From: Apostichopus japonicus
Lineage: Eukaryota; Echinodermata; Holothuroidea; Aspidochirotida; Stichopodidae
DNA length: 64,000 nucleotides
Direction: 5' to 3'
Assembly (NCBI RefSeq): GCF_037975245.1
Contig: NC_092579.1
Coordinates: 14,890,178 to 14,954,177, forward strand
Shown: one piece after another, positions 38,309 to 64,000 of the stretch
Layout: each line of letters begins with the position of its first letter
How positions within the stretch are numbered: the stretch's first letter is position 1
Position numbers and translations under genes: made by a program
The notes under the pieces: model-generated
What the model was told of the DNA's origin: nothing
What the model saw: the letters and a program-made list of their open reading frames with translations, nothing else
Database searches by the model: none

Positions 38309-38339
<31 letters not shown>

Positions 38340-39616
38340 AATGGTACAACACTTAATCAGAAAGTTGGAGAAAAATAGAGGGCGTCTGACATTAATTGCT
38401 TTGCTGGATTCATTGTGTAGCCCCTTTAAATATACACATATGACATGTTGCAAGGAATTACTAATTAAGTTTGTCTGGAAGTTAATTGTCTGCAATAAAA
38501 TGTAGACCAGTGTATTGTAATGAAGCTTTATTACTTACATGACCAGTTGGTGTGTGTGGGTCTGCAAGGATTTAAAGCGCGTTGACATTAATACCAATGG
38601 CATATTTTCTTTTAGTGATCTGTAGGTGGAGTCCCACTGAATGACAAAGGAGATTTAAGGATATAAAATATATATCAAGTGTATTAATATTTTGTTTTAA
38701 TAAATGTGTGATTATTTTAAGTTGCACAGCTACTTTAAGTGGGATTAATTTTGCTTTAATATAATCACACACTAACTGATATCAACCTTGCTGATCTAAA
38801 TTGTTCCCAGTAGTGATACACCACATTCGCCAGTATAGAGCCGTTGGTCACCCCTTGAACACACAGACAGACCTCTTAGTCAGATTACTCTTGCAGTAAG
38901 GTCATGAGCTCAAATTTTACCACGACGGCCATGGTCTACGGTGCCCTTCCAACTGACCTTGGTGCCTTTCGGAAATCTGCCGTTATTACGGCCAAAATGC
39001 CTTGCCCTTTTTTCTCGGATGGCTGCCGTGCCCTTTTTGAGAAACAAACCTCAAGTAAACCCTGACAGCTAGATCAACAGAACATATAACAAAACACATT
39101 ATTGAATGAACATCTTTCATTATTTCTTTCAAAAACCACAACTTCTGACAAGAACCAAGATTTCTCCCAATCCTACAGATAATTGAATTCTTTTGAAAAT
39201 AAATATATCATAACAATCAACCACAAGGTACAGGGTTTACAACACTCCATTATAGAGATTTTCATGCTAAAATATAGACAATGATGCTTTTCCAAAATTC
39301 CCGTGATTTGATTGGCTAATAGTCCCTATCCATTGTCTGGGAAACATTCTTGCATCTGTAGTGCTCACTGAACACAAAGTTGTTTAACAACAATTACTTG
39401 CAACATTACTTTCCCCTGTGTAGAGAAAACAAAGTTTGTTGTATAGGCTATCATATGTGTGCACTCAAAGATCATAACGTTAGGCCTTGCTGCATACCAT
39501 CCTACGTAATTTCTGACAACAATCACTCCTGGTACAAAGATGCACTTGAATTGTATTTGAGATAAGCAGGTAATATTTGAATCATTGTTTTGATCAGAAC
39601 ATGTTATGAGTTGAGA
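35669..39616. other. Presumed intron/intergenic DNA, nothing recognised
   Basis: AT-rich. A C-run followed by CA repeats at 38309-38340. A degenerate stretch at 38921-39050 uses the GGTGCCCTT/GCCTTGCCC wording of the 39625 element. No convincing exon found. Confidence 0.45.
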
Positions 39617-39624
39617 CAATCTAT

Positions 39625-39958: not shown

Positions 39959-40250
39959 TGTTCGCGGTCCAATTGACCACATGCTTCAGTAATTTTTTTT
40001 GGTGCAACGTTCATGTGTGAACTACTGTGAATCGTCAAAATTAGACATTGAAGTATGACTTTTTTAATCCACATTGCGTTAAAAGCTATTTACATATAGG
40101 CCTACTGTAATTTTCGCGGTCCAATTGACCACATGCTTCAGTAATTTTTTTTGTGCAACGTTCGAGTGTGAACTACTGTGAATCGTCAAAAGTATGACTT
40201 TTTTAATCCACATTGCGTTAAAAGCTATTCACATAGGCCTACTGTAATTT
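39959..40250. repeat. Tandem duplication, ~150 bp unit
   Basis: TTCGCGGTCCAATTGACCAC begins both copies (39960 and about 40115). They end with AAAGCTATTYACATA followed by GGCCTACTGTAATTTTCG. Copies are almost identical apart from a 13-bp-scale deletion in the second. Confidence 0.88.
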
Positions 40251-40755
40251 TCGTAGAGATGATGGTTTGCAAAGAGCCTAGCCCAGGATAAATGATGGAT
40301 CGGGTATTGAGGATTTGCACATGCGTAGTTGAATATGAAGTTCGAATAGGCCTATGTACATGCAATAGTACAGTCAACTGTGTGGAATTTAGCAAGAGAT
40401 ATGCACACTGTAGGTACAGGGATTTTTGAAGAGTTGGTTGTAGGAATCGTTGCAAGGTCAACGCATGGAGCCAGTACTACAGAGTTGGCGATTAGAGAAG
40501 TAAAAGGGCGGACGAAGGGGAGGGGGTGGGGGCGGGGAGAAAATTGGTTGAAACGGCAGGTTGGGCGAAAGAGGGGGTGGGCAGGGCCGCCCCTGTCAAA
40601 CAGCGAAGCTAAGGCACAGAGCCATCTGCCCTATCTATTGTGTACACAGTTCACTAATGAGTTATCTAGGGGTTAAATAATTCTATTGACAAAAAGGAAA
40701 GCAAAGTGAGAGGGACCACCATCTACTGTTCTGCTGCATTAAAACAGCCACCAGG

Positions 40756-40869
40756 CAGGCGCGTAGCCAAGGGGGGGGGAGGCGAAGGGGGCAGCCGCCC
40801 CCCTTGAGCATATTTTTTTATATTTTATATTTTCGCCCCTCCCTTGGCAAATTTCTGACTACGCGCCTG
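40756..40869. mobile_element. 114-bp MITE, TIR CAGGCGCGTAG, perfect 8-bp TSD
   Basis: Ends CAGGCGCGTAGCCAAGG and GACTACGCGCCTG; target duplication CCACCAGG at 40748-40755 and 40870-40877. A shortened relative of the 11576-11880 element without the hairpin core. Confidence 0.95.
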
Positions 40870-40894
40870 CCACCAGGACCTGAACAGAACTTGT

Positions 40895-41050
40895 TTTATC
40901 ATGTTGATTCTTTATGGCCTTGTTGCCCTTCTTTAAGATGCAAGTTGGCCTTGGTGCCTTACCTCATAGCCCTTGGTGCCCTTTAAAATTTTGGCCCATT
41001 CAAGGCCAAAGTGGCCTAGCCCTAAAAATTGTGAAATTTGAGGCTTGCAC
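40895..41050 (-). mobile_element. Fragment related to the 39625 element
   Basis: Shares GGCCTTGGTGCC, CCCTTGGTGCCC and AATTTGAGGC wording with the 39625 element, without clean ends. Confidence 0.45.
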
Positions 41051-41340
41051 TTTAGTAGCTGCAAACTTACCTATGGTAGGGAATATCAAATTTCTGTATG
41101 TGTACATTGAAATGCTTTCAAGTTCATTACAATATGCAATCATGCCTTTAAGCAGGAAAATTGAAACATGCTGCAGATACTCAACCTGAGCAGAATATCC
41201 TAAACATGGGTTGACCATGTAAAGTTTGTATCAATTGGGCATATATACCGGTAACAAGTCTCAATAAATTCATGTTTACAAACATGTTATTGTATGCATC
41301 AAATTCATATGAAATCGATATGATAAAAAAAAATACTTAC

Positions 41341-41428
41341 CTATGTTCTACCATCATGTTAGCAACCACTGTACGTTTACCAAAGATCTCCTGCATTTTG
41401 CATTCAGATATGTTGGCACTGCATTTTG
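41341..41428 (-). CDS. Candidate internal exon downstream of the CIDE-N exon
   Basis: Acceptor CACTGTTTTAG|CA and donor CATAG|GTAAGT. Its two leading bases complete the codon split at the end of the 42051 exon (G plus CA), then KCSANISECKMQEIF and GKRTVVANMMVEH. The other two frames are closed. A similar donor, CATAG|GTAAGT, closes another open stretch ending at 41071, whose phase does not fit. Confidence 0.45.
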
Positions 41429-42050
41429 CTAAAACAGTGACCTGCACTTTTCTAAAGAACTGCCTAGCTGATCACGGTGCTTTAAATTAGGTGTGGAAAA
41501 CAAAATACAAGTATTCTTGAAAATTGAAATGAATAGAAGAGGATCATAATTAGAGCTTACATAACATAAATTATAGGCCTACAGAACTTTCATTATTATT
41601 TTTTTGTAATATGAGTATTGTACTTCCAAGTCCTGGTGTGTTTCAAATTCTTGCCGAGGATACCCAAAGACCATGCAAAATCCACTTATAATTTTCAAGA
41701 GGTGATTCCCTTCAAACCATAGTTGTTCAGGCCACCTGTTTGATAGTTAAAGATTGATTAAGAATTATCCAGGTTAACAGCATAGTTGAATAGTCTTTCA
41801 AAAGTAAAGTTACTCTCCTGTCAACGGAGGGGAAATCTGCAGTTTGACCCGCCAAATGTGGTCTAGACACCTCAAATGTTATATTTGAAGAGACTGGGGA
41901 AATCCTTCCCATGAAAAAAGGTAGACTCAGTGTGTTTGAGGAAAACTTGTCAAAAAGATCCCCAAATTTGTATGCACACTTTTCGAAACACTGCTGATTA
42001 TTCATGTCAACAGAGTATTTTGGATAGGCTGGAGCTTAATTGTCACTTAC

Positions 42051-42170
42051 CCCACATTCCATCGCTCTTCAACACTATGATGGCTGTGTTTGGCTCCATT
42101 TCAATGAGAGGTACAAGAGCATCTTTGTTGATCTCTGCTTCATCCTCTTTATCCACAAGTACCACATCTT
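42051..42170 (-). CDS. Exon encoding the C-terminal half of a CIDE-N-like domain
   Basis: AATTGCAG|AA to TGGG|GTAAGT. Reads DVVLVDKEDEAEIN, KDALVPLIEM, EPNTAIIVLKSDGMW. This follows the CIDE-N pattern (hydrophobic strand, ED pair, L.....NT....L....W) of DFF45, DFF40/CAD and CIDE proteins, which interact in apoptotic DNA fragmentation or lipid-droplet biology. The identity rests on pattern only. Confidence 0.5.
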
Positions 42171-43179
42171 CTGCAATTTTACACTTTCGATGATAACAAA
42201 GATGAAAGAACATATTTATATGCGGCCTAGTATTTGTAACAAACTTGTTTACGCCATTGTTTAGGTTTTAGCCATGCATATTAAGTATTAACATTATGGG
42301 TAGGCCTATAGGGCAGTTAACGCTAATGTTTCCTGTAGAATTGTATGCCTATACCTTTGTAGGCAAACACCCCTACCGCAAGTACGTACTACTATACTAG
42401 CAGGGGCGTAGCCAGTACGTAGCACTGTAGGCCCGGGCCTACCCTTTTATTGGCCAAGTTATCTTTTTCTTAAAAACACCCATAATTCAAATCGATAAGC
42501 TTGCTGGACGAGTTCAAGGGTCTAGACAGGAAAAACTATTGAAAGAACGTAGCAAGAATATGGCTAAATTAGGTGACCTATTCTTCTGTCATCTAGGCTA
42601 TCATTTCTATCGCGTGCCATTTCATTCAACACTCTACCTGCCGGAAAAGACTATAGGAACCTATCTTGTCATTTTTTTAACATCTAGTTAAGAACCCATT
42701 TACACAGATAATATTTCAGTTGAGAACATTCCACAGTCAAATAAGCCTATCGTTCTGCGTTCTACGATAAATGAAGAGAGACTCAGCGGTTTGGCACTGA
42801 TGCACATCCACAGAGACTTTGCAATTGACGTTGATGCTGTGCTGAGGAAATTTGTGTCAGATGGCAATCATCGGATAGCTCTCGCCCTTTTTTATTCGGC
42901 TAACTAAAACATTTACTAGCTACAGTTGTATCAAAGACAATTAGCTATAGTTGTATCAAAGACATTTCTTGCCTATCTTTGTATCTACAAGTATCAGAAG
43001 TTGAAAAGTAAGACTACTCTGTACATGTAGGTCTTGCTAATTTTAAATTCATTATGTAGTATTGAATTACGTACTACTTTAACTTGTTTTTTTTTTGGTT
43101 TAAAAGTGATATTGAATGAGGTGTCTCAGGTTAGCAAGAGGCCAGGGAACCAGAATGAACACCGATCGGGAAGGGCCGT

Positions 43180-43265
43180 TTCCGGCCATCTGGGGGGTTT
43201 GCAAAACCAAAAATTTTCTTGTACGCTCCACACTAACCAATGGTGGCGCTCCGCTCAGAATAGTC
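43180..43265 (-). mobile_element. MITE fragment with damaged hairpin core
   Basis: TTTCCGGCCATCTGGGGGGT, then TACGCTCCACACTAACC and AATGGTGGCGCTCCGC. The 5' arm of the stem has lost pairing. Confidence 0.6.
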
Positions 43266-43382
43266 GTGCATACAACTGAAAATCCTGGCTAACCCCCGAC
43301 TAGTGCTATTTCACTAGTTTTGTAGACTAACACCTCTACCGCATGTACGTACTACTAGTACTAGTTCACAATAAGTATAGGC

Positions 43383-43432
43383 CTAACGTTAGGCCTAGTT
43401 AACGTTAGGCCTAACGTTAAGCTTAGTTCTAC
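43383..43432. repeat. Palindromic AACGTTAGGCCTAACGTT cluster
   Basis: AACGTTAGGCCTAACGTT is a perfect 18-bp palindrome; two overlapping versions sit side by side near the start of the CIDE-like gene. Confidence 0.7.
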
Positions 43433-43643
43433 CTTCCTCAATATGTATTGTTACTTAAACTATGGCAAAGTCTATATTACTTATTAGGCAATAACTAGGC
43501 GACGTATTACGGGCCTGGTCATATATAGCAAGGTGTAGTATCTTGATAGTGATACTATTATGATATGTAGGCTGACAGAAGTCACGTACAACCGCCTCTC
43601 CGTATGCTATCTTTTAATGAGTTCTAAACATACTCAATATTAC

Positions 43644-44191
43644 CTCCAAAATAAATGCCTACCGGTTTCAACTAAATCTCTGAATTCACTGAACACCACA
43701 ACTTTTCTTGTTTCATTTCGAACGAATAACCGGCATTTATCAACCTTATTTCCCGTCTCGTATCGTATATATGTATCATAGTGGCCTATAATAATTACTG
43801 GTACTACTTTGGACCAATTAGGAGTGCCGGTTTCAATGACGTAATCTATTTGCACAGTTAGGATATAAACATGGTAGGGGATCGGCTTTTTAGTTCTTTT
43901 GGATTCACTCAACCACAAGAGCACAGAACGTACAGGGGATACTGGCCTAGCTTCCAACAGCTTAGTATGTATGGTTGACTGACTTCGATGTAAGACAAGA
44001 TAGGAAAACATCCATAATAATGAGGTAAGGCACGCGACAGACGCGCTTGGCGGGAACTTCATTTTAGACTTTGGGAAGAGAAGCAGTGACTGAAGCGGTC
44101 TGCTTTGCAGTGAAGGTGAGTTAGAGGAATCTAAATAGAGTATCTTAATTAAGTTAATTTTCCGTTGTTCCGGCTGAGGAATGCAACCCAT
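43644..44191 (-). CDS. Candidate 5' exon with N-terminal half of a CIDE-N-like domain
   Basis: A 183-codon frame, the longest non-repeat frame in this part of the window. Its last ~33 residues (KCRLFVRNETRK, VVVFSEFRDLVETG) resemble the CIDE-N start (K.FRV.N..R...GV....L.EL). The donor is uncertain: GGAG|GTAATA (exon end 43644) is good but its phase does not fit the 42051 exon, while ACCG|GTAGGC (end 43663) fits but is weak. A hydrophobic stretch (SVACLTSLLWMFSYLVL) lies at about residues 51-67. True exon start may be later, for example after TTATTATAG. Confidence 0.35.
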
Positions 44192-44400
44192 CTTAAAGAG
44201 ATTGCTAATAATGTGCGTTACTGTAAAATAATTATAACACCATATGCATGTAAACAGCTGAAGGCAATGATGTCAGATATTCTAAGTGCAACGTTGTTGG
44301 CCTTTACTTAATGGTAATGCTAATTGTAATTTGTATAAGCCTACAGCAAGTAAAGAGCTTACATCCAGGGATGTGTAGTCACATATAGTCCAGCTCATTG

Positions 44401-44848
44401 GCGGCGATCATGGGCGGGGGGGGGGGACGGCGGGGGGGGGGCATGCCCCAATATTTTAGGTGGGGGATTATAATATCCCCCAATATTTGGTGGCATATGT
44501 TTTTTTGTGGCTTTAAAAAGAAAATAATGCGTGAGATTATTTATCCAAATCATATTTGACGGTGGCTAAAACTTCATCCAACACATGCTGCATGAGGTAA
44601 ATGACTCTTCGTAGTCGTTTCTGTGACCGTATAGCATGTTGGCATTCATCATTATTATAAGAATGTCTGTACATCTCTTGTGTATGAGTGTAAGTACGTA
44701 TAATCATAAATCCACATCGATATGTGTTCACTGGGTTTCAATTTGGCCTGTTCCCTACAGGATTTCTAACCGCATGTGCTAATAGTCAGGGGGTGGGGCA
44801 AAGGGGGAGACCGCCCCCCCCCCATCAAGCATATTTTGTTCATGATAT
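44401..44848 (-). mobile_element. Repeat family C, longer copy
   Basis: Begins GGCGGCGATCATGGGCGG with a long G run, and mirrors the 35385 copy. It holds an extra ~130 bp (about 44510-44650) whose minus frame reads RSQKRLRRVIYLMQHVLDE, a possible relic of the parent element's protein; not identified. Confidence 0.7.
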
Positions 44849-45169
44849 CGAAGTTTTATAGTAGCCGTTATAAGAGGTTTAATTTTTGTACACCAATAAA
44901 TTAACTGTGTCTGAATTTTTGAGCATTAAGCATTAAGCCTATATCATATCTTCCAAATGAAAAAAGACTTTTGCTTAGATGTTTGGAGAAGTTATGCATG
45001 GCATATATATCACATGATCAACCAATCAAGAAATTTTGTTTTCAAATGTTGCAATGGGTGACAATTGATAAAAAGTCATTTTGTTGTTTTGCAGCACAAA
45101 GTTGATTTCCTCACTAATTATTACATTTAAGAAATTTCTCATTTTGCTGCAAAATGTCAATATATTTAC

Positions 45170-45442
45170 TTGAAGATGAAATTTTTGACGGTACGTTCTA
45201 AAACGTTTCTTATTTTATGGGACTTTCTTTTGGGATACGTCTGCTGGGACCAGGAAATCTACAGATTTAGCAACCAGCATTATTACGAATATTGCAATTT
45301 AAAGTTAGGACATACTCCAAACAACATTAAAGAGAAACTAAACATACAATTATACTGGTTTGCTTCTAGATTGATGACCATGCGGACCAGGACCAAGACA
45401 ACAGATCAATGGAAGAATGAAAGGAAACTGGTAATGAACTAA
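45170..45442 (+). CDS. Unidentified 90-codon ORF left of the satellite
   Basis: Starts MKMKFLTVRSKTFLILW, a basic then hydrophobic stretch resembling a signal peptide, and ends basic (MTMRTRTKTTDQWKNE). No family recognised, no ribosome or splice evidence; could be chance in AT-rich DNA. Confidence 0.15.
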   Translation: MKMKFLTVRSKTFLILWDFLLGYVCWDQEIYRFSNQHYYEYCNLKLGHTPNNIKEKLNIQLYWFASRLMTMRTRTKTTDQWKNERKLVMN

Positions 45443-45569
45443 CCAGAAGAAGAACAAAGAACGGTGTAGTACTGGTATCAATTGAAAAATAAGGTTTTGA
45501 TTGCTCATCTCTAGTTTATGTATTGTAGGTGTTACAGGTTTGCACTCATCCACCAGCCAACAGCCACGT

Positions 45570-45980
45570 ACCAGCCTTTTGCCACGGGCAAAAGAGTAGT
45601 AACGTTTGTGTGTTTGTATTGCAATGATTTTACTATATATTTTATGCCGATATGAAGATTGCTTTTAATAAAATAAAATATGGCATACTTTGTTAAAAAA
45701 ATGCCTTAATTGTTCTTTCTAGTTTATATTTTATAGATGTTCCAGACATCTCAAGCCACCAACTTGCAAATACCACAACCACCCACCACCTTCCTCCGGC
45801 ATCCACTGACTACCAGCCTTTTGCCACGAGCAAAAGAGTTGTAACATATTTGTGTTTGTATTGCAATGATTTTACTATATATTTTTATGCTGATTTGAAG
45901 AGTGTTTTAAAAAAAATATGCCATACTTTGTTAAAGAAATGCCTAATTGTTCTTTCCAAGTTTATATTTTATAGATGTTC
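45570..45980 (+). repeat. Direct duplication at the satellite boundary, ~236-bp offset
   Basis: ACCAGCCTTTTGCCACGRGC, GTATTGCAATGATTTTACTA and TTATATTTTATAGATGTTCC occur in order in 45570-45743 and 45812-45978. CCACCAAC/CACCCACC-rich spacers lie between. The right copy leads straight into the octamer array. Confidence 0.85.
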
Positions 45981-46583
45981 CGTTTGTATCGTTGCATCGT
46001 TGTATCGTTGTATGGGTGCATTGTGCATCCTACCATCCTAACATCATTACCATCCTTACCATCCTTACCATCCTACCATTCTACCATTCTATCATTGTAC
46101 CATCCTTCCATCCTACAATCCTAACATCCTACCATCCTATCATTCTATCATTGTACCATCCTACCATCCTTCTATCCTACCATCCTACCATCTTACCATC
46201 CACCATCTTACCATCCTACCATCTTACCATCTTACCATCTTACCATCTTAACATCTTAACATCTTACCATCTAGCCATCTTATCATCCTACCATCCTACC
46301 ATCCTTCCATCCTTAATCATCCTAACATCTAAGCATCCTCCCATCTAGCCATCTTACCATCCTTCCATCCTACCATCTTATCATCTCACAATTTAACCAT
46401 CCTACCATCTAAACATCCTACCATTCTATCATCTTATCATTCTACTATCCTACCATCCTTCCATCCTACCATCTAACCATCCTAACATTCTACCATCCAA
46501 CCATCCTTCTATCTTACCATCCTTCTATCCTACCAGCCTTCCATCCTTCCATCCTACCATCCTTCTAACCTACCATCCTTCCA

Positions 46584-47098
46584 GGATGGAAGGATAGTAG
46601 AATGGTAGGATGTTAGGATGGAAGGATGGTAGCATGGTAGCATGGTATAATTGTAGGATGGAAGGATGTTAGGATGGTTAGATTGTAGGATGGTTAGATG
46701 GTAGGATAGTAGGATGAAAGAATGGTAGGTCGGTAGGTTGGTACGATGGTTGGATGGTAGGATGGAAGGATGGTTAGATGGTAGGATGTAGGATGGAAGG
46801 ATGGAGGGATGGTAGAATGGTAGGATGGAAGGATGGAAGGATAGTAGAATGGTAGGATGGAAGGATGGTACGATGGAAGGATCATAGGATGATCGAATGG
46901 TAGGATGCTAGGATGGTTAGATCGTAGGATGGATGGATGGAAGGATGGAAAATGGTAGGATTAAAGGATGGTAGAATGATAGAATGGTTGGATGGTAGAA
47001 TGGTAGGATGCTAGGGTGGTTACATGGAACGATGGAAGGATGGAAAAATTGTAGAATGGTAGGATGGTAGAATGATAGAATCGTTGGATGATCAAACC
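46584..47098 (-). repeat. Inverted block of the octamer satellite, copy 1
   Basis: The + strand switches to GGATGGTAGGATGG-type words. Left junction ATCCTTCC-AGGAT-GGAAGGAT is a hairpin; right junction GGATG-ATCAAAC-CATCC likewise. About 515 bp. Confidence 0.93.
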
Positions 47099-47936
47099 AT
47101 CCTACCATCCTTCAATCCTACCATCATACCATTTAACCATGCTACCATTCTATCATCCTACCATTCTATCATTTACCATCCTACTATCCTACCATCTTTC
47201 AATCCTACCATTCTACAAACCTTCCATCATACAATCTAACCATCCTACTATCTAACCATCCTTCCATCCTACCATCCTTCAATCCTACCATCTGACCATC
47301 CTACCTTTCTACCTTCCTTCTATCCTTCCATCCTACCATATAAACATACTACCATCTAACCATTCTATCATCCTACCATTCTATTATTCTACCATGCTAC
47401 CATCCTTCCATCCTACCATCTAACCATCCTACTATCCAACCATCCTACCATGCTACCATCTAACCATCCTAACATTCTATCATTCCACCATCCTACCATT
47501 ATTCAATCCTTCCATCCTACCATCTAACCATCCTACTATCTAACCATCCTTCCATCCTACAATCCTACCATCTAACCATCCTACTATCTAGCCATCCTAC
47601 CATCTTACTATCTAACCATCCTACCATTATTCAATCCTTCCATCCTACCATCTAACCATCCTACCATCTAACCATCCTACTATCCAACCATCCTACCATG
47701 CTACCATCTAACCATCCTAACATTCTATTATTCCACCATCCTACCATTATTCAATCCTTTTATCCTACCATCTAACCATCCTACTATCTAACCATCCTTC
47801 CATCCTACTATCTAACCATCCTACCATTCTATTATCCTACCATCTAGCCATCCTACCATCTTACTATCTAACCATGCTACCATCCTTCCATCCTACCATC
47901 TAACCATCCTACCATTCTATCATCCTACCATTCTAT

Positions 47937-50900
47937 CATTCTACCATCCCTCTATCCTTCCATCCTACCATCCTACTATCCTTCCATCTAACCATCCAAC
48001 CATACTACCACCTTTCCAACCTACCATCCTTCCATTCTACTATCCTTCCATCCTACCATCTAACCATCCTACAATCCTACCATTCTACCATCCTACCATC
48101 CTACAATCTAACCATCCTACCATCTATCCATCCTTCCATTGTACCATTTAACCATCCTATCATCCTTCCATCCTACCATCCTACCATCAAGCCATCTTAC
48201 AATTCTATCATTGTACCCTCCTTCCATCCTACCATCCTACCATCCTTCAATCCTTCCATCTTTCCATCCTACATCCTACCATCTAAGCATCCTACCATCC
48301 AACCATCCTTCCCTCCTTCCATCCTAAGATCCTTCCATCCTTCCATCCTACCATCTTACCACACTACCATCCTGGCATCCTACCATCTAACCATCCTACC
48401 ATCTAACCATCCTTCCATCCTATCATCCTACCATTCTAAAATTCTGCCATCCTATCCTTCCATCTAACCATCCTACCATTCTTTCATCCTACCATTCTAT
48501 CATCCTTCTATACTACCATTCTACCATCCTGCCACCTAACCATCATACCATCTAACCATCCTACCATCCTGCCATCCTTCCATCCTTCTATCCTGTCATC
48601 TAACTATCCTACCATCCTACCATCCTTCCATTATACATCCTACCATCTAACCATCCTACCATTCTATCATCCTATCATTCTACCATCCTACCAATCTACC
48701 ATTTTTCCATCCTTCCATCTAACCATCCTACCATTCTATCATCCTATCATTCTACCATCCTACCATTCTACCATCCTGCCACCTAACCATCATACCATCT
48801 AACCATCCTACCATCCTGCCATCCTTCCATCCTTCTATCCTGTCATCTAACTATCCTACCATCCTACCATCCTTCCATTATACCATCCTACCATCTAACC
48901 ATCCTACCATTCTACCATCTTACCATCATACCATCCTTCCATCCTACCAGCATACCATCCTTCAATCCTTCCATCCTACCACCTAACCATCCTACCATCT
49001 AACAGTCCTACCATTCTATCATCCTACCATTCTATCATTCTACCAGCCTACTATCCTACCATTCTACCATCTAACCATCCTACCATCTAACCATCCTACC
49101 ATTCTATCATGTACCATCCTACCATCTAACCATCCTACTATCTAACCATCCTAACCTCCTTCCATCCTACCATCATACCATCCTTCCATGCTACCAGCAT
49201 ACCTTCTTTCCATCCTACCATCTAATCATCTAACCATTCTACCATTCTATCATCCTACCATTCTGTCATTCTATCATCCTACCATCCCTCTATCCTTCCA
49301 TTCTGCCATCCTTCAATCCTACCATCATACTATCCTTCATCTAACCATCCTACCATTCTATTATTCTACCATCCAACCATACTACCATCCTTCCATCCTA
49401 CCATCCTACCATCTAATCTCCTACCATCCTTCCATCCTACCATCCTACCATCTAATCTCCTACCATCCTTCCATCCTACCACCCTGTCATCTAACTATCC
49501 TACCATCTAACCATCCTACCATCCTTCCATTATACCATTATACCATCCTTCCATCCTACCCTCTAACCATCCTACCATTCTTTCATCCTACCATTCTACC
49601 ATCTTGCCACCTAACCATCATACGATCTAACCTTCCTACCATCCTTTCATCCTTCCAACCTTCCATCCTACCCTCCTGTCATCTAACTATCCTACCATCT
49701 AACTATCCTGCCATCCTTCCATTATACCATCCTTCCATACAAACATCCTACAATCTAACCATCTACCCATCCTACCATCTAACCATCCTACCATCTAACC
49801 ATCCTACCATTCTATCATCCTACCATCTAACCATCCTACCATTCTATCATCCTACCATTCTAAAATTCTGCCATTCTACCATCCTACTATCCTTCCATCT
49901 AACCATCCTACCATTCTTTCATCCTACCATTCTATCATCCTTCTATCCTACCATTCTACCATCCTGCCACCTAACCATCATACCATCCTGCCATTCTTCC
50001 ATCCTTCTATCCTGTCATCTAACTATCCTACCATCTAACCATCCTACAATCTAACCATCCTAACATCCTTCCATCCTACAATTATACCATGCTACCATCC
50101 TTCCATCCTACCATCCAACCATCTAACCATCCTACCATCCTACCATCCTTCCATCCTACCATTCTACCATCCCTCGATCCTTCCATCCTAACATCCTACC
50201 ATCCTATCATTCTATCATTGTACCATCCTACCATCCTTCTATCCTACCATCTTACCATCCACCATCTTACCATCCCACCATCTTACCATCTTAACATCTT
50301 AACATCTTACCATCTAGCCATCTTATCATCCTACCATCCTACCATCCTTCCATCCTTCCATCCTACCATCCTACCATCCTACCATTCTATCATTCTACCA
50401 TCCTTCCATCCTACCATCCTTCCATCCTTTCATCCATCCATCATACCATTCTACCATCCTACCATCCTTTTATCCTACCATACTACCATCCTTCAATCCT
50501 ACAATCCTTCCATCCTACCATCCTACCATCTAACCATCCTACCATCTAACCATCCTTCCATCCTACCATCTAACCATCCTACCATTCTATCATCCTACCA
50601 TTCTATCATTCTACCATCCTACCATCTAACCATCCTACAATCTAACCATCCTAACATCCTTCCATCCTACAATTATACCATGCTACCATCCTTCCATCCT
50701 TCCATCCTACCATCCTTCCATCCTACCATCCTTCCATCCTACCATTCTATCATCCTACCACTCTATCATTCTACTATCCTACCATCTAACCATCCTACAA
50801 TCTAACCATCCTAACATCCTTCCATCCTACAATTATACCATGCTACCATCCTTCCATCCTACCATCCAACCATCTAACCATCCTACCATCCTTCCATCCT

Positions 50901-53900
50901 ACCATTCTACCATCCTGCAATCTAACCATCCTACTATCTATCATTCTACCATCCCTCTATCCTTCCATCCTACCATCCTACTATCCTTCCATCTAACCAT
51001 CCAACCATACTACCACCTTTCCAACCTACCATCCTTCCATTCTACTATCCTTCCATCCTACCATCTAACCATCCTACAATCCTACCATTCTACCATCCTA
51101 CCATCCTACAATCTAACCATCCTACCATCTATCCATCCTTCCATTGTACCATTTAACCATCCTATCATCCTTCCATCCTACCATCCTACCATCAAGCCAT
51201 CTTACAATTCTATCATTGTACCCTCCTTCCATCCTACCATCCTACCATCCTTCAATCCTTCCATCTTTCCATCCTACATCCTACCATCTAAGCATCCTAC
51301 CATCCAACCATCCTTCCCTCCTTCCATCTTAAGATCCTTCCATCCTTCCATCCTACCATCTTACCACACTACCATCCTGGCATCCTACCATCTAACCATC
51401 CTACCATCTAACCATCCTTCCATCCTATCATCCTACCATTCTAAAATTCTGCCATCCTATCCTTCCATCTAACCATCCTACCATTCTTTCATCCTACCAT
51501 TCTATCATCCTTCTATACTACCATTCTACCATCCTGCCACCTAACCATCATACCATCTAACCATCCTGCCATCCTTCCATCCTTCTATCCTGTCATCTAA
51601 CTATCCTACCATCCTACCATCCTTCCATTATACCATCCTACCATCTAACCATCCTACCATTCTATCATCCTATCATTCTACCATCCTACCAATCTACCAT
51701 TTTTCCATCCTTCCATCTAACCATCCTACCATTCTATCATCCTATCATTCTACCATCCTACCATTCTACCATCCTGCCACCTAACCATCATACCATCTAA
51801 CCATCCTACCATCCTGCCATCCTTCCATCCTTCTATCCTGTCATCTAACTATCCTACCATCCTACCATCCTTCCATTATACCATCCTACCATCTAACCAT
51901 CCTACCATTCTACCATCTTACCATCATACCATCCTTCCATCCTACCAGCATACCATCCTTCAATCCTTCCATCCTACCACCTAACCATCCTACCATCTAA
52001 CAGTCCTACCATTCTATCATCCTACCATTCTATCATTCTACCAGCCTACTATCCTACCATTCTACCATCTAACCATCCTACCATCTAACCATCCTACCAT
52101 TCTATCATGTACCATCCTACCATCTAACCATCCTACTATCTAACCATCCTAACCTCCTTCCATCCTACCATCATACCATCCTTCCATGCTACCAGCATAC
52201 CTTCTTTCCATCCTACCATCTAATCATCTAACCATCCTACCATTCTATCATCCTACCATTCTGTCATTCTATCATCCTACCATCCCTCTATCCTTCCATT
52301 CTGCCATCCTTCAATCCTACCATCATACTATCCTTCATCTAACCATCCTACCATTCTATTATTCTACCATCCAACCATACTACCATCCTTCCATCCTACC
52401 ATCCTACCATCTAATCTCCTACCATCCTTCCATCCTACCATCCTACCATCTAATCTCCTACCATCCTACCATCCTTCCATCCTACCACCCTGTCATCTAA
52501 CTATCCTACCATCTAACCATCCTACCATCCTTCCATTATACCATTATACCATCCTTCCATCCTACCCTCTAACCATCCTACCATTCTTTCATCCTACCAT
52601 TCTACCATCTTGCCACCTAACCATCATACCATCTAACCTTCCTACCATCCTTTCATCCTTCCAACCTTCCATCCTACCCTCCTGTCATCTAACTATCCTA
52701 CCATCTAACTATCCTGCCATCCTTCCATTATACCATCCTTCCATACAAACATCCTACAATCTAACCATCTACCCATCCTACCATCTAACCATCCTACCAT
52801 CTAACCATCCTACCATTCTATCATCCTACCATCTAACCATCCTACCATTCTATCATCCTACCATTCTAAAATTCTGCCATTCTACCATCCTACTATCCTT
52901 CCATCTAACCATCCTACCATTCTTTCATCCTACCATTCTATCATCCTTCTATCCTACCATTCTACCATCCTGCCACCTAACCATCATACCATCCTGCCAT
53001 TCTTCCATCCTTCTATCCTGTCATCTAACTATCCTACCATCTAACCATCCTACAATCTAACCATCCTAACATCCTTCCATCCTACAATTATACCATGCTA
53101 CCATCCTTCCATCCTACCATCCAACCATCTAACCATCCTACCATCCTACCATCCTTCCATCCTACCATTCTACCATCCCTCGATCCTTCCATCCTAACAT
53201 CCTACCATCCTATCATTCTATCATTGTACCATCCTACCATCCTTCTATCCTACCATCTTACCATCCACCATCTTACCATCCCACCATCTTACCATCTTAA
53301 CATCTTAACATCTTACCATCTAGCCATCTTATCATCCTACCATCCTACCATCCTTCCATCCTACCATCCTACCATTCTATCATTCTACCATCCTTCCATC
53401 CTACCATCCTTCCATCCTTTCATCCATCCATCATACCATTCTACCATCCTACCATCCTTTTATCCTACCATACTACCATCCTTCAATCCTACAATCCTTC
53501 CATCCTACCATCCTACCATCTAACCATCCTACCATCTAACCATCCTACCATCTAACCATCCTACCATTCTATCATCCTACCATTCTATCATTCTACCATC
53601 CTACCATCTAACCATCCTACAATCTAACCATCCTAACCTCCTTCCATCCTACAATTATACCATCTAACCATCCTTCCATCCTTCCATCCTACCATCCTTC
53701 CATCCTACCATCCTTCCATCCTACCATTCTATCATCCTACCACTCTATCATTCTACTATCCTACCATCTAACCATCCTACAATCTAACCATCCTAACATC
53801 CTTCCATCCTACAATTATACCATGCTACCATCCTTCCATCCTACCATCCAACCATCTAACCATCCTACCATCCTTCCATCCTACCATTCTACCATCCTGC

Positions 53901-53940
53901 AATCTAACCATCCTACTATCTAATCATCCTAACATCTAAG
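47937..53940. repeat. ~3.0-kb tandem higher-order unit within the satellite
   Basis: Landmarks recur at offsets of 2,998-3,006 bp: CCATTGTACCATTTAACC at 48136 and 51141, ATGCTACCAGCATACC at 49188 and 52186, and the frame starting at 50089 again at 53095. The join at about 50940 reads CTACTATCTA|TCATTCTACC. Confidence 0.9.
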
Positions 53941-54966
53941 CATCCTCCCATCTAACCATCTTACCATCCTTCCATCCTACCATCTTATCATCTCACAATT
54001 TAACCATCCTACCATCCTACCATCTAAACATCCTACCATTCTATCATCTTATCATTCTACTATCCTACCATCCTACCATCCTTCCATCCTACCATCTAAC
54101 CATCCTACCATCCTACCATTCTATCATCCTACCACTCTATCATTCTACTATCCTACCATCTAACCATCCTACAATCTAACCATCCTAACATCCTTCCATC
54201 CTACAATTATACCATGCTACCATCCTTCCATCCTACCATCCAACCATCCTACCATCTAACCATCCTTCCATCCTACCATTCTGCCATCCTGCAATCGAAC
54301 CATCCTACTATCTAATCATCCTAACATCTAAGCATCCTCCAATCTAACCATCTTACCATCCTTCCATCCTACCATCTTATCATCTCACAATTTAACCATC
54401 CTACCATCTAAACATCCTACCATTCTATCATCTTATCATTCTACTATCCTACCATCCTACCATCCTTCCATCCTACCATCTAACCATCCTACCATCCTTC
54501 CATCCTACCATTCTATCATCCTACCACTCTATCATTCTACTATCCTACCATCTAACCATCCTACAATCTAACCATCCTAACATCCTTCCATCCTACAATT
54601 ATACCATGCTACCATCCTTCCATCCTACCATCCAACCATCCTACCATCTAACCATCCTTCCATCCTGCCATCCTGCAATCGAACCATCCTACTATCTAAT
54701 CATCCTAACATCTAAGCATCCTCCCATCTAACCATCTTACCATCCTTCCATCCTACCATCTTATCATCTCACAACTTAACCATCCTACCATCTAAACATC
54801 CTACCATTCTATCATCTTATCATTCTACTATCCTACCATCCTTCCATCCTACCATCTAACCATCCTAACATTCTACCATCCAACCATCCTTCTATCTTAC
54901 CATCCTTCTATCCTACCAGCCTTCCATCCTTCCATCCTACCATCCTTCTAACCTACCATCCTTCCA

Positions 54967-55481
54967 GGATGGAAGGATGAAAGAATGGTAGGATGTTAGG
55001 ATGGAAGGATGGTAGCATGGTAGCATGGTATAATTGTAGGATGGAAGGATGTTAGGATGGTTAGATTGTAGGATGGTTAGATGGTAGGATAGTAGGATGA
55101 AAGAATGGTAGGTCGGTAGGTTGGTACGATGGTTGGATGGTAGGATGGAAGGATGGTTAGATGGTAGGATGTAGGATGGAAGGATGGAGGGATGGTAGAA
55201 TGGTAGGATGGAAGGATGGAAGGATAGTAGAATGGTAGGATGGAAGGATGGTACGATGGAAGGATCATAGGATGATCGAATGGTAGGATGCTAGGATGGT
55301 TAGATCGTAGGATGGATGGATGGAAGGATGGAAAATGGTAGGATTAAAGGATGGTAGAATGATAGAATGGTTGGATGGTAGAATGGTAGGATGCTAGGGT
55401 GGTTACATGGAAGGATGGAAGGATGGAAAAATTGTAGAATGGTAGGATGGTAGAATGATAGAATCGTTGGATGATCAAACC
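54967..55481 (-). repeat. Inverted block of the octamer satellite, copy 2
   Basis: Same junctions and nearly identical sequence as copy 1, displaced by 8,383 bp, so one inversion was later copied with its flanks. Confidence 0.93.
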
Positions 55482-58400
55482 ATCCTACCATCCTTCAATC
55501 CTACCATCATACCATTTAACCATGCTACCATTCTATCATCCTACCATTCTATCATTTACCATCCTACTATCCTACCATCTTTCAATCCTACCATTCTACA
55601 AACCTTCCATCATACAATCTAACCATCCTACTATCTAACCATCCTTCCATCCTACCATCCTTCAATCCTACCATCTGACCATCCTACCTTTCTACCTTCC
55701 TTCTATCCTTCCATCCTACCATATAAACATACTACCATCTAACCATTCTATCATCCTACCATTCGATTATTCTACCATGCTACCATCCTACCATCTAACC
55801 ATCCTACTATCCAACCATCCTACCATGCTACCATCTAACCATCCTAACATTCTATCATTCCACCATCCTACCATTATTCAATCCTTCCATCCTACCATCT
55901 AACCATCCTACTATCTAACCATCCTTCCATCCTACAATCCTACCATCCTACCATCTAACCATCCTACTATCTAGCCATCCTACCATCTTACTATCTAACC
56001 ATCCTACCATTATTCAATCCTTCCATCCTACCATCTAACCATCCTACCATCTAACCATCCTACTATCCAACCATCCTACCATGCTACCATCTAACCATCC
56101 TAACATTCTATCATTCCACCATCCTACCATTATTCAATCCTTCCATCCTACCATCTAACCATCCTACTATCTAACCATCCTTCCATCCTACTATCTAACC
56201 ATCCTACCATTCTATTATCCTACCATCTAGCCATCCTACCATCTTACTATCTAACCATGCTACCATCCTTCCATCCTACCATCTAACCATCCTACCATTC
56301 TATCATCCTACCATTCTATCATTCTACCATCCCTCTATCCTTCCATCCTACCATCCTACTATCCTTCCATCTAACCATCCAACCATACTACCACCTTTCC
56401 AACCTACCATCCTTCCATTCTACTATCCTTCCATCCTACCATCTAACCATCCTACAATCCTACCATTCTACCATCCTACCATCCTACAATCTAACCATCC
56501 TACCATCTATCCATCCTTCCATTGTACCATTTAACCATCCTATCATCCTTCCATCCTACCATCCTACCATCAAGCCATCCTACAATTCTATCATTGTACC
56601 CTCTTTCCATCCTACATCCTACCATCTAAGCATCCAACCATCCTTCGCTCCTTCCATCCTAAGATCCTTCCATCCTTCCATCCTACCATCTTACCACACT
56701 ACCATCCTGGCATCCTACCATCTAACCATCCTACCATCTAACCATCCTTCCATCCTATCATCCTACCATTCTAAAATTCTGCCATCCTATCCTTCCATCT
56801 AACCATCCTACCATTCTTTCATCCTACCATTCTATCATCCTTCTATACTACCATTCTACCATCCTGCCACCTAACCATCATACCATCTAACCATCCTACC
56901 ATCCTGCCATCCTTCCATCCTTCTATCCTGTCATCTAACTATCCTACCATCCTACCATCCTTCCATTATACCATCCTACCATCTAACCATCCTACCATTC
57001 TATCATCCTATCATTCTACCATCCTACCAATCTACCATTTTTCCATCCTTCCATCTAACCATCCTACCATTCTACCATCCTACCATTCTTTCATCCTACC
57101 ATTCTACCATCTTGCCACCTAACCATCATACCATCTAACCTTCCTACCATCCTTTCATCCTACCATCCTTCCAACCTTCCATCCTACCATCCTGTCATCT
57201 AACTATCCTACCATCTAACCATCCTACCATCCTTCCATTATACCATCCTTCCATCCTAACATAATACAATCTAACCATCTTCCCATCCTACCATCTAACC
57301 ATCCTACTATCTAACCATCCTACTATCTAACCATCCTAACCTCCTTCCATCATACCATCCTTCCATGCTACCAGCATACCTTCTTTCCATCCTACCATCT
57401 AATCATCTAACCATCCTACCATTCTATCATCCTACCATTAGGTCGTTCTACCATCCCTCTATCCTGCCATCCTTCAATCCTACCATCCTACTATCCTTCA
57501 TCTAACCATCCTACCATTCTATTATTCTACCATACTACCATCCTATCATCCTTCCATCCTACCATCTAATCTCCTACCATCCTTCCATCCTACCATACTA
57601 CCATCCTTCCATCCTACCATCTTTCCATCCTACCATACTATTATCCTTCCATCCTACCATCCTTCCATCCTATCATCTAATCTCCTACCATCCTACCATC
57701 CTACCATACTACCATCCTTCCATCCTACCATCTTTCCATCCTACCATCTAATCTCCTACCATCCTTCCATCCTACCATCCTTCCATCCTACCATCCTGTC
57801 ATCTAACTATCCTACCATCTAACCATCCTACCATCCTTCCATTATACCATTATACCATCCTTCCATCCTACCCTCTAACCATCCTACCATTCTTTCATCC
57901 TACTATTCTACCATCTTGCCACCTAACCATCATACCATCTAACCTTCCTACCATCCTTTCATCCTACCATCCTTCCAAACTTCCATCCTACCATCCTGTC
58001 ATCTAACTATCCTACCATCTAACCATCCTACCATCCTTCCATTATACCATCCTTCCATCCTAACATAATACAATTTAACCATCTTCCCATCCTACCATCT
58101 AACCATCCTACTATCTAACCATCCTAACATCCTTCCATCCTACAATCCTACCATCCTTCCATCCTACCATCTAACCATTCTACCATCTAACCATCCTACC
58201 ATTCTATCATCCTACCATTCTATCATCCTACCATCCTACCATCGCTCTATCCTTCCATCCTACCATCCTACTATCCTTCCATCTAACCATCCTACCATAC
58301 TACCATCTTTCCAACCTACCAACCTTCCATTCTACTATCCTTCCATCCTACAATCTAACCATCCTACCATCCTACCATTCTATCATCCTACCATCCTACC

Positions 58401-61400
58401 ATCCTTCCATCCTTCCATCCTACCAGCATACCATCCTTCCATTCTTTCATCCTATCATCTAACCATCCTACCATTCTATTATCCTAAAATCTAACTATCC
58501 TACCATCTAACCATCCTACTATCTAACCATCCTTCCATTCTTCCATCTAACCATCCTACCATTCTATCATCCTACCATTCTATCATTCTACCATCCCTCT
58601 ATCCTTCCATCCTACCATCCTACTATCCTTCCATCTAACCATCCAACCATACTACCACCTTTCCAACCTACCATCCTTCCATTCTACTATCCTTCCATCC
58701 TTCCATCTAACCATCCTACAATCCTACCATTCTACCATCCTACCATCCTACAATCTAACCATCCTACCATCTATCCATCCTTCCATTGTACCATTTAACC
58801 ATCCTATCATCCTTCCATCCTACCATCCTTCCAACCTACCATCAAGCCATCCTACAATTCTATCATTGTACCCTCCTTCCATCCTACCATCCTACCATCC
58901 TTCAATCCTTCCATCTTTCCATCCTACATCCTACCATCTAAGCATCCTACCATCCAACCATCCTTCCCTCCTTCCATCCTAAGATCCTTCCATCCTTCCA
59001 TCCTACCATCTTACCACACTACCATCCTGGCATCCTACCATCTAACCATCCTACCATCTAACCATCCTTCCATCCTATCATCCTACCATTCTAAAATTCT
59101 GCCATCCTATCCTTCCATCTAACCATCCTACCATTCTTTCATCCTACCATTCTATCATCCTTCTATACTACCATTCTACCATCCTGCCACCTAACCATCA
59201 TACCATCTAACCATCCTACCATCCTGCCATCCTTCCATCCTTCTATCCTGTCATCTAACTATCCTGCCATCCTACCATCCTTCCATTATACCATCCTACC
59301 ATCTAACCATCCTACCATTCTATCATCCTATCATTCTACCATCCTACCAATCTACCATTTTTCCATCCTTCCATCTAACCATCCTACCATTCTATCATCC
59401 TATCATTCTACCATCCTACCATTCTACCATCCTGACACCTAACCATCATACCATCTAACCATCCTACCATCCTGCCATCCTTCCATCCTTCTATCCTGTC
59501 ATCTAACTATCCTACCATCCTTCCATTATACCATCCTACCATCTAACCATCCTACCATTCTACCATCTTACCATCATACCATCCTTCCATCCTACCAGCA
59601 TACCATCCTTCAATCCTTCCATCCTACCACCTAACCATCCTACCATCTAACAGTCCTACCATTCTATCATCCTACCATTCTATCATTCTACCAGCCTACT
59701 ATCCTACCATTCTACCATCTAACCATCCTACCATCTAACCATCCTACCATTCTATCATGTACCATCCTACTATCTAACCATCCTACTATCTAACCATCCT
59801 AACCTCCTTCCATCCTACCATCCTTCCATGCTACCAGCATACCTTCTTTCCATCCTACCATCTAATCATCTAACCATCCTACCATTCTATCATCCTACCA
59901 TTCTGTCATTCTATCATCCTACCATCCCTCTATCCTTCCATTCTGCCATCCTTCAATCCTACCATCATACTATCCTTCATCTAACCATCCTACCATTCTA
60001 TTATTCTACCATCCAACCATACTACCATCCTTCCATCCTACCATCCTACCATCTAATCTCCTACCATCCTTCCATCCTACCATCCTACCATCCTACCATC
60101 TAATCTCCTACCATCCTTCCATCCTACCACCCTGTCATCTAACTATCCTACCATCTAACCATCCTACCATCCTTCCATTATACCATGATACCATCCTTCC
60201 ATCCTACCCTCTAACCATCCTACCATTCTTTCATCCTACCATTCTACCATCTTGCCACCTAACCATCATACCATCTAACCTTCCTACCATCCTTTCATCC
60301 TTCCAACCTTCCATCCTACCCTCCTGTCATCTAACTATCCTACCATCTAACTATCCTGCCATCCTTCCATTATACCATCCTTCCATACAAACATCCTACA
60401 ATCTAACCATCTACCCATCCTACCATCTAACCATCCTACCATCTAACCATCCTACCATTCTATCATCCTACCATCTAACCATCCTACCATTCTATCATCC
60501 TACCATTCTAAAATTCTGCCATTCTACCATCCTACTATCCTTCCATCTAACCATCCTACCATTCTTTCATCCTACCATTCTATCATCCTTCTATCCTACC
60601 ATTCTACCATCCTGCCACCTAACCATCATACCATCCTGCCATTCTTCCATCCTTCTATCCTGTCATCTAACTATCCTACCATCTAACCATCCTTCCATTA
60701 TACCATCTAACCATCCTACCATTCTATCATCCTATTATTCTAAAATTCTGCCATCCTACCATCCTACTATCCATCCATCTAACCATCCTACCATTCTTTC
60801 ATCCTACCATTCTATCATCCTTCTATCCTACCATTCTACCATCCTGCCACCTAACCATCATACCATCTAACCATCCTACCATCCTGCCATCCTTCCATCC
60901 TTCTATCCTGTCATCTAACTATCCTACCATCTAACCATCCTACCATCCTTCCATTATACCATCCTACCATCTAACCATCCTACCATTCTATCATCCTATC
61001 ATTCTACCATCCTACCAATCTACCATTTTTCCATCCTTCCATCCTTCAATCCTTCCATCTAACCATCCTACCATCTAACCATTCTACCATCTAACTATCC
61101 TACCATTCTACCATCTTACCATCCTACCACCCTACCATTCTTTTATCCTACCATATAACCATCCTACCATCTTAATATCTAACCATCCTTCTATCCTACC
61201 ATCCCTCCATCCAACCATATACCCATCTAACTATCCTACCATTCTATCATCCTTCCATCCTACCATCTAACCATCCTAACATTCTATCATCCTACCCTCC
61301 TGCCATTTAACCACCATCTAACCATCCTACCATCTAACCATCCTACCATTCTATCATCCTATTATTCTATCATTCTACCATCCTTCCATCTTTCCATCCT

Positions 61401-64000
61401 ACCATCCTTCCATTCTACCATCCTTCCATCCTCCCATCTAACCATCCTACCACCCTACCATTCTATCATCCTACCATCCTTCCATCCTACCACACCATCC
61501 TTCCATCCTACCACACCATCCTTCCATCCTACCAGCATACCATCCTTCAATCCTTCCATCCTACCACCTAACCATCCTACCATTCTATCATCCTACCATT
61601 CTATCATTCTACCAGCCTACTATCCTACCATTCTACCATCTAACCATCCTACCATCTAACAAATATAACAAATATCTAACCATCCTTCTATCCTACCATC
61701 CCTCCATCCAACCATATACCCATCTAACTATCCTACCATTCTATCATCCTTCCATCCTACCATCTAGCCATCCTAACATTCTATCATCCTACCCTCCTGC
61801 CATTTAACCACCATCTAACCATCCTACCATCTAACCATCCTACCATTCTATCATCCTACCTTCTAACCATCCTATCACCCTACCATTCTATCATCCTACC
61901 ATCCTTCCATCCTACCATCATACAATCCTTCCATCCTACCAGCATACCATCCTTCAATCCTTCCATCCTACCACCTAACCATCTAACCATCCTACCATTC
62001 TATCATCCTACCATTCTATCATTCTACCAGCCTACTATCCTACCATTCTACCATCTAACCATCCTACCATTCTATCATGTACCATCCTACCATCTAACCA
62101 TCCTACCATCTAACCATCCTACTATCTAACCATCCTAACCTCCTTCCATCCTACCATCATACCATCCTTCCATGCTACCAGCATACCTTCTTTCCATCCT
62201 ATCATCTAACCATCCTACCATTCTATCATCCTACCATTAGGTCGTTCTACCATCCTACCATCCCTCTATCCTTCCATCCTGCCATCCTTCAATCCTACCA
62301 TCCTACTATCCTTCATCTAACCATCCTACCATTCTATTATTCTACCATACTACCATCCTACCATCCTACCATCCTTCCATCCTACCATCCTATCATCTAA
62401 TCTCCTACCATCCTTCCATCCTACCATACTACCATCCTTCCATCTTTCCATCCTACCATCTAATCTCCTACCATCCTTCCATCCTACCATCCTTCCATCC
62501 TACCATCCTGTCATCTAACTATCCTACCATCTAACCATCCTACCATCCTTCCATTATACCATCCTTCCATCCTACCCTCTAACCATCCTACCATTCTTTC
62601 ATCCTACCATTCTACCATCTTGCCACCTAACCATCATACCATCTAACCTTCCTACCATCCTTTCATCCTACCATCCTTCCAACCTTCCATCCTACCATCC
62701 TGTCATCTAACTATCCTACCATCTAACCATCCTACCATCCTTCCATTATACCATCCTTCCATCCTAACATAATACAATCTAACCATCTTCCCATCCTACC
62801 ATCTAACCATCCTACTATCTAACCATCCTAACCTTCCATCATACCATCCTTCCATGCTACCAGCATACCTTCTTTCCATCCTACCATCTAATCATCTAAC
62901 CATCCTACCATTCTATCATCCTACCATTAGGTCGTTCTACCATCCCTCTATCCTTCCATCCTGCCATCCTTCAATCCTACCATCCTACTATCCTTCATCT
63001 AACCATCCTACCATTCTATTATTCTACCATACTACCATCCTATCATCCTTCCATCCTACCATCTAATCTCCTACCATCCTTCCATCCTACCATACTACCA
63101 TCCTTCCATCCTACCATCTTTCCATCCTACCATACTACCATCCTTCCATCCTACCATCCTTCCATCCTACCATCTAATCTCCTACCATCCTTCCATCCTA
63201 CCATACTACCATCCTTCCATCCTACCATCTTTCCATCCTACCATCTAATCTCCTACCATCCTTCCATCCTTCCATCCTTCCATCCTACCATCCTGTCATC
63301 TAACTATCCTACCATCTAACCATCCTACCATCCTTCCATTATACCATTATACCATCCTTCCATCCTACCCTCTAACCATCCTACCATTCTTTCATCCTAC
63401 TATTCTACCATCTTGCCACCTAACCATCATACCATCTAACCTTCCTACCATCCTTTCATCCTACCATCCTTCCAAACTTCCATCCTACCATCCTGTCATC
63501 TAACTATCCTACCATCTAACCATCCTACCATCCTTCCATTATACCATCCTTCCATCCTAACATAATACAATTTAACCATCTTCCCATCCTACCATCTAAC
63601 CATCCTACTATCTAACCATCCTAACATCCTTCCATCCTACAATCCTACCATCCTTCCATCCTACCATCTAACCATTCTACCATCTAACCATCCTACCATT
63701 CTATCATCCTACCATTCTATCATTCTACCATCCTACCATCGCTCTATCCTTCCATCCTACCATCCTTCCATCCTACTATCCTTCCATCTAACCATCCTAC
63801 CATACTACCATCTTTCCAACCTACCAACCTTCCATTCTACTATCCTTCCATCCTACAATCTAACCATCCTACCATCCTACCATTCTATCATCCTACCATC
63901 CTACCATCCTTCCATCCTACCAGCATACCATCCTTCCATTCTTTCATCCTATCATCTAACCATCCTACCATTCTGTTATCCTAAAATCTAACTATCCTAC

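Follow-up and report, generated by a model that had tools for sequence, protein, structure and literature searches.

What kind of locus is formed when eight-letter words almost devoid of G fill the right-hand side of a stretch of sea cucumber DNA, and how could such an array arise? The question comes from a window of 64,000 nucleotides of Apostichopus japonicus (the whole stretch analysed; contig NC_092579.1, here C19, positions 14,890,178-14,954,177), where C19 has 32,433,329 bases and the genome 671,581,487 bases in 35 contigs. As seen below, this locus belongs to a dispersed family whose parts keep one order and one polarity, and its words are private to it. It is considered probable that it represents a non-coding satellite locus within a duplicated family, having arrays that grew in place by unequal exchange.

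The octamer array begins at window position 46,020 and continues to C19:15,065,713, corresponding to 129,517 bp of assembled sequence free of N, well beyond the minimum of 18 kb proposed in a preliminary description made from the letters of the window. Its composition is T 49,318, C 46,466, A 32,018 and G 1,715 (1.3% G), with 366 CpG dinucleotides. Tandem Repeats Finder returned a period of 8 over 46026-46583, 46583-47090 and 47096-63971, confirming that the words extend to the window end, and the same period is found at the far end of the array, as expected from a satellite, understood as a long tandem array of short non-coding units. The identity at a lag of eight bases is kept at 0.68-0.72 in all 5-kb steps across the 129,517 bp, while the main word changes, being CCATCCTA from 46,020 to approximately 92,540 (window coordinates extended beyond its end; 46.5 kb) and CCATTTCA from there onward (83 kb). 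The portion inside the window, at 46020..64000 on the plus strand, is made of CCATCCTA words.

The near absence of G from the plus strand outside two inverted blocks was also upheld, as 46024-64000 contains C 7018, T 5647, A 4695 and G 617. Throughout the whole array, G exceeds C in two stretches only, which are both inverted blocks and both inside the window: the first copy at 46583..47090 (minus strand, G-rich on the plus strand) and the second at 54967..55477 (minus strand). These are two copies of a single 0.5 kb block, carried within one 1.9 kb duplication (46314-48244 and 54697-56626, 98.5% identity, offset 8383), and no other inversion was found in the C19 array. The absence of CpG, however, had been overstated, as 25 are present within 46024-64000; in the C-rich part (55520-175536, extended coordinates), 348 CpG were observed against 428 expected from the base counts, indicating that CpG is scarce mostly because G is scarce. 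Regarding the two landmark words of the same description, the first was recovered at its four places (48136, 51141, 56519 and 58783) and the second at six, five of them exact (49188, 52186, 57365, 59828 and 62854) and one shifted by a single base (62172, not 62171).

Stop-free frames of up to 334 amino acids are present in the array. A coding repeat was considered and rejected, as these long frames are a by-product of the words and the frames upstream of the array are not conserved; an RNA gene was also discarded, as no Rfam match was obtained in the window at gathering thresholds. Two-tetrad patterns resembling G-quadruplexes, counted purely as sequence patterns on the complementary strand, amount to 588 for 37 kb made of CCATCCTA words, compared to 26 for the 83 kb made of CCATTTCA words.

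Besides the octamer period, a kilobase-scale organization had been proposed, and this structure is real, as 29%, 18% and 55% of the 200-mers in three array stretches occur more than once (29% referring to 47091-64000), compared to none in 20 shuffles of the octamer order for each stretch, a control using one fixed cutting phase, which makes it a poor test of short words, though not of 200-mers. The regularity implied by the term higher-order repeat did not stand, because the duplications are nested and irregular, reaching 6.4 kb with 90-99.95% identity and following no single higher-order period. The largest pairs are 6,428 bp at 99.95% (offset 3,199), 5,084 bp at 99.9% (offset 19,422) and 5,325 bp at 99.5% (offset 5,230), and those lying in the window are 3,087 bp at 98.2% (offset 3,006) and 1,939 bp at 98.5% (offset 8,383). 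The former of these two corresponds to a tandem duplication at 47866..53922 (plus strand; 47866-50940 versus 50872-53922), parts of which recur at 58457-60693 (97.6-97.8%), and a further duplication at 57299..64000 (plus strand) passes the window end, pairing 57299-58749 with 62791-64254 (95.9%, offset 5492). Coverage by segments of ≥1 kb with ≥95% identity amounts to 21,563 bp in the first part (of 46,521 bp) and 63,938 bp in the second (of 82,996 bp).

The offsets vary (1.5, 3.0, 3.2, 5.2, 8.4, 10.6 and 19.4 kb, among others), and a dominant kilobase period of the alpha-satellite type was not found, the commonest 50-bp class of offsets holding nine pairs. This variation points to nested segmental duplication and not to a regular higher-order repeat, a pattern that repeated unequal exchange or break-repair copying would be expected to leave. 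The preliminary description was only partly right in calling such structure unusual for a simple repeat, as the work on human GAATG and satellite II/III describes arrays of 5-bp words with kilobase higher-order repeats and periods of 3.36, 3.6 and ~5.8 kb (PMC2588610). Within the same family, a 12-mer array of CATCACCATTTC at C11:23.176-23.180 Mb has a 431-bp higher-order repeat in 9.6 copies, more regular than the C19 array.

Near-identical blocks of this kind could also be produced by the assembly, in which case a real but far shorter array would have been swollen by false duplications. The 99.95% identity of the youngest blocks over 6.4 kb and a run of 2,500 N in the C9 locus are compatible with such an artefact; however, the 129.5 kb are free of N, many duplicate blocks carry private differences (95-98% identity) and similar arrays are present on other contigs, which makes this explanation highly improbable.

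The duplicates also bear on the lack of G. When block pairs were compared (skipping those overlapping earlier ones by more than 30%), G took part in 22 of 116 differences in the youngest class (98-99.99% identity; 19%), 46 of 308 at 95-98% and 132 of 1,056 at 90-95%, while between adjacent octamers it took part in 453 of 7,054 and 763 of 15,170 (5-6%). The presence of G among young differences indicates that mutation does make G, the bulk of the old variation being among A, C and T. On the simplest reading, a small set of G-free founder words (e.g., ACCATTTC, ACCCTTTC and ATCATTTC) was copied repeatedly to give a mosaic, rather than the array having drifted from one word, so G-freeness looks inherited from the founders. 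In addition, the G-bearing word ACCATTTG was itself amplified on C11, showing that the family tolerates G.

The origin of the array can be approached through its left flank. The sequence from 38,426 to 45,981 of the window is, apart from interruptions, part of a non-coding family dispersed in the genome, and the flank shared with other family loci reaches left to at least 38,426. The leftmost family block lies at 38426..38921 (plus strand), where 38836-38921 has 11 other copies and 38426-38835 is common to eight of those neighbourhoods; another copy of this left block, at C14:11473914-11474002, has no known head downstream, and in the C3 and C4:12.05 Mb copies the distance from left block to head is 13-27 kb. 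A non-repetitive head follows on the plus strand in three blocks: block 1 at 41048..42286, with 83-91% identity to the copies of C22, C12, C9 and C4:12.05 Mb; block 2 at 43299..44386, with sub-blocks 79-88% identical to those of C22, C12, C14, C4:12.05 Mb and, partly, C11; and block 3 at 44928..45568. The last includes the interval 45,034-45,560, for which 32 rows were found genome-wide: 12 are full-length copies on nine contigs (this one included), seven are longer partial copies and the other 13 are weaker. The full-length heads are 84-88% identical to the window copy and 87-99% among themselves, and the family would comprise about 20 copies, about a dozen of them with similar arrays. Directly left of the array, at 45569..45981 (plus strand), are two tandem minisatellite units of ~220-250 bp; this ~220-bp minisatellite has at least 335 genome matches, and those listed cluster near heads on C3, C4, C9, C11, C12, C14, C19, C20 and C22. 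The family unit is bordered on its left by an interspersed repeat of ~1.4 kb that is not related to it (37033-38430), for which 41 further rows were obtained across 17 contigs.

Among the 12 full-length heads no conserved reading frame was found. This is the point against an origin from a duplicated family of long non-coding RNAs (lncRNA) or pseudogenes, where the arrays would lie in introns or 3' parts and the 220-bp units would be repeated exons. Stretches resembling splice sites were noticed by eye in the units and the head, and the order of the blocks is kept, as such an origin would predict, but it is regarded as improbable.

The arrays downstream of the heads were examined over 1.5 kb past the last listed unit (past the head itself at C19:18.23 Mb) at 18 loci, in addition to C11, C14:14.4 Mb and the window. 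All 12 full-length heads, C19 included, are followed by a nearly G-free array of short period on the strand of the head, and the order is the same in these members: head, tandem ~220-bp minisatellite, then array. The period is of octamers at C19, C22, both C14 loci and C20:20.326 Mb, and of 11/12-mers at C3, C4, both C9 loci, C11, C12 and C20:20.308 Mb. A 46-bp satellite is present at seven of the 12 (C4, C9 twice, C11, C14 twice and C20:20.326), before the array or interleaved with it, and is absent from the C19 array; 14 of its 19 exact matches are in or within ~85 kb downstream of family heads. Its copies at C19:1045084-1048240, at 1 Mb, are distant from any known head. Nine diverged heads were probed as well, and in four of them repeats of 29 bp and 96/97 bp lead into a G-poor 9-mer array that begins within the 1.5 kb.

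The same polarity was seen when searching by words, as the 12-mer pattern has 74 of 74 genome matches downstream of family heads and on their strand, and the octamer ACCATTTC pattern has all 100 listed of 137 matches within ~60 kb downstream of heads, also on the head strand. Meanwhile, the words themselves differ between sister loci (CCATCCTA, CCATTTCA, ATCATTTT, CATTTTAT and the 12-mer CATCACCATTTC). A 24-mer of the C19 array gave 121 genome matches, all of them within the window and the next 30 kb, and its words are private to the locus in this sense, as a match missing from the word search does not prove absence.

A conserved flank followed by tandem repeats in dispersed copies, as found in 12 of 12 full-length heads, is also the arrangement of Helentron/HINE-like elements. 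The locus could then be a large non-autonomous mobile element, of this or another class, with tandem repeats in its 3' part, the satellite being an overgrown internal array; the HINE elements of oysters are described as carrying satellite DNA arrays flanked by conserved sequence, in some cases with two in succession (PMC7492417). The C22 and C12 copies lose similarity to the left side of the window at the same base, 38836. However, although 10 of the 11 other copies start at 38836, only six bases of the query lay to its left. The C4:12.05 Mb copy, which has a small indel at this point, keeps matching leftward, and sequence further left is common to eight neighbourhoods. The common start is consequently weak evidence for a mobile element. 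An element ending with AGAGCCGTTGG had been favoured at first and was weakened once C4:12.05 Mb and others were matched further left. In addition, the left ends are ragged, as C9 starts elsewhere and C4/C11 have another left end, and such differing ends favour interchromosomal duplication over a mobile element with fixed ends. On the right side, no end was found in common between C14 or C20 and C4/C11, nor between the C19 flank and C4 or C9. In the copy at C4:12.05 Mb (13 kb), no stop-free frame exceeds 131 amino acids, no search for transposase or helicase families having been made. Taken together, a mobile element is held to be possible but unlikely. As judged by eye, the right end of the C19 array (C19:15065714) abuts a sequence resembling a long interspersed nuclear element (LINE), and the C4, C9 and C11 arrays end at a common junction with a LINE-like fragment that is unlike that of C19.

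The chromosomal position of the family was compared with its possible roles. A telomeric or subtelomeric location, part of the roles suggested initially, is excluded by position, as the array is interior, at C19:14.94-15.07 Mb of 32.43 Mb. For the family as a whole, 21 loci were taken from the 32 head rows, leaving out eight short weak matches (C1:12.288, C22:6.651, C5:21.683, C19:19.066, C8:9.909, C8:27.435, C3:15.602 and C13:1.087 Mb) and three second pieces (C20:16.579, C20:16.773). These 21 loci lie at 0.357-0.815 of their contig, and all of them are within 0.30-0.85, a range in which 18 of the 31 copies of control repeats fall (Fisher P 6e-4), with limits chosen after seeing the data and loci on one contig not being independent. 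The controls are the copies on contigs of known length, being 14 of 39 rows of one other repeat and 17 of 41 rows of the ~1.4 kb repeat at 37033-38430. Taking one value per contig, the mean distance from the middle is 0.11 against 0.25 expected (P 0.001), and the loci cluster within contigs, as none of 20,000 random draws was as tight.

This clustering in contig interiors fits a centromeric or pericentromeric satellite with a role in chromosome segregation, a centromeric role being also among the initial suggestions. The location is the part of that proposal that fits; against it, the tested 24-mer is private to the C19 locus and strong heads are present on nine contigs only, which differs from one family at all centromeres, and the loci are spread, with three on C19 across 3.3 Mb and six on C20 across 4.1 Mb. 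A centromere sequence common to the chromosomes is unlikely, and a role in segregation appears very improbable for this locus.

Returning to the duplicated family with arrays grown in place, the following course can be proposed. The family would have spread among chromosome interiors by large interchromosomal duplication. In a comparison of edges and not of middles, C4 and C11 share 94.6% over 933 bp plus 97.8% over 465 bp at their left edge and 96.7% over 1,751 bp plus 96.9% over 445 bp at their right edge, these edges being 51-53 kb apart, which indicates that large pieces were copied between chromosomes. Each arrival at a new site would have been followed by local amplification of a small number of G-free founder words, through recurrent unequal exchange or break-repair copying. 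Such amplification would leave overlapping blocks with 90-99.95% identity and locus-specific words, with a strand bias that may go back to the founder words and be maintained by one-way copying. The array would most likely have no sequence-specific function beyond being heterochromatin-prone DNA.

Several points weigh against this explanation. The length of the array and the identities of its duplicates are those of the assembly. The low share of G in old differences could also reflect the removal of units bearing G, and the share of G in the youngest class may be raised by assembly errors where copies are nearly identical. Five of the nine diverged heads have no G-poor array within 1.5 kb, two of them having G-rich repeats, and no ~220-bp units were seen at the C19:18.23 Mb head. 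The 46-bp satellite is not confined to the family, as five of its 19 exact matches are elsewhere on C19. Moreover, the reversed control word ACCACTTT was matched 26 + 63 times (89), the doubled word being in none of the fetched family loci, which means that some short G-poor arrays may lie outside the head family. The ACCACTTT repeat matches themselves represent another octamer array or arrays, outside the fetched loci.

A variant of the proposed course gives more weight to the unit itself: a satellite-bearing mobile or duplicating unit of 50 to >130 kb would carry a polarised, nearly G-free array and re-invent its words after each move, producing chromosome-private satellites, with polarity kept by one-direction copying or by transcription (e.g., a C-rich RNA or one-way break-repair copying). 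This variant is judged distinctly unlikely.

Other features were noticed along the window and the genome. Approximately 28 kb left of the array, at 17279-17635 on the minus strand, is a dehydrogenase E1 exon (Pfam E1_dh, E 3.8e-41), which by eye corresponds to pyruvate dehydrogenase E1 alpha. A 179-bp tandem repeat in about nine copies is present at 23789-25417, a related array being inside the family copy at C4:12.04-12.05 Mb, and a 55-bp minisatellite in ten copies at 27801-28345. A cox1 match on C35 gives a single frame of 517 residues with both genetic code tables 5 and 9; with table 9 (AAA Asn, TGA Trp, AGA Ser), the residues at reassigned codons resemble those of other cox1 proteins, and frames resembling nad4L and cox2 come next, as judged by eye, a code and gene order that would fit an echinoderm. 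Pieces resembling cox1, with TGA codons, occur at C29:14745-16086 and 30842-31219 (minus strand), apart from the cox1 of C35, and are either nuclear copies or a second mitochondrial contig.

The origin of chromosome-private satellites is an open question, and this family could help to show how satellites grow. As sister arrays follow comparable heads (87-99% identity) yet are made of different words, the heads could act as a clock for measuring the turnover of words, and the share of G in differences relative to block age allows founder words to be told apart from new mutations.

Comparing the family with known systems, primate pericentromeric regions are known for interchromosomal segmental duplications, in which large non-coding blocks are copied between chromosome interiors with satellite nearby. 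The present family would be similar in the copying of blocks between interiors together with satellite. The simple satellites of Drosophila also have words of 5-10 bp, long arrays and sets of words that differ between chromosomes, but they form very large heterochromatin blocks without a common duplicated head, unlike the arrays described here. Regarding human satellite II/III and GAATG, the published work describes short diverged words, arrays of up to ~100 kb, kilobase repeats, domains and inversions (PMC2588610), all of which resemble the C19 array; this differs from human GAATG in its 8-bp, nearly G-free words, its locus-private main word, its irregular offsets and its duplicated head in a fixed order. 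The Cg_HINE Helentrons of Crassostrea gigas share the conserved flank followed by a tandem array, the dispersal, the related flanks with divergent repeats and, sometimes, two arrays in series (PMC7492417). However, their conserved flanks are stretches of 50-100 bp with subterminal inverted repeats (subTIRs) and a palindrome (PMC7492417), compared to tens of kilobases in about 20 copies with ragged ends in the sea cucumber. Among the open papers listed by the literature searches, no title or abstract opening dealt with octamer or G-free satellites in echinoderms and, as far as those searches go, what is new in this family is the combination of a duplicated head usable as a clock, a strict polarity in 12 full-length loci and words that differ from one locus to another.

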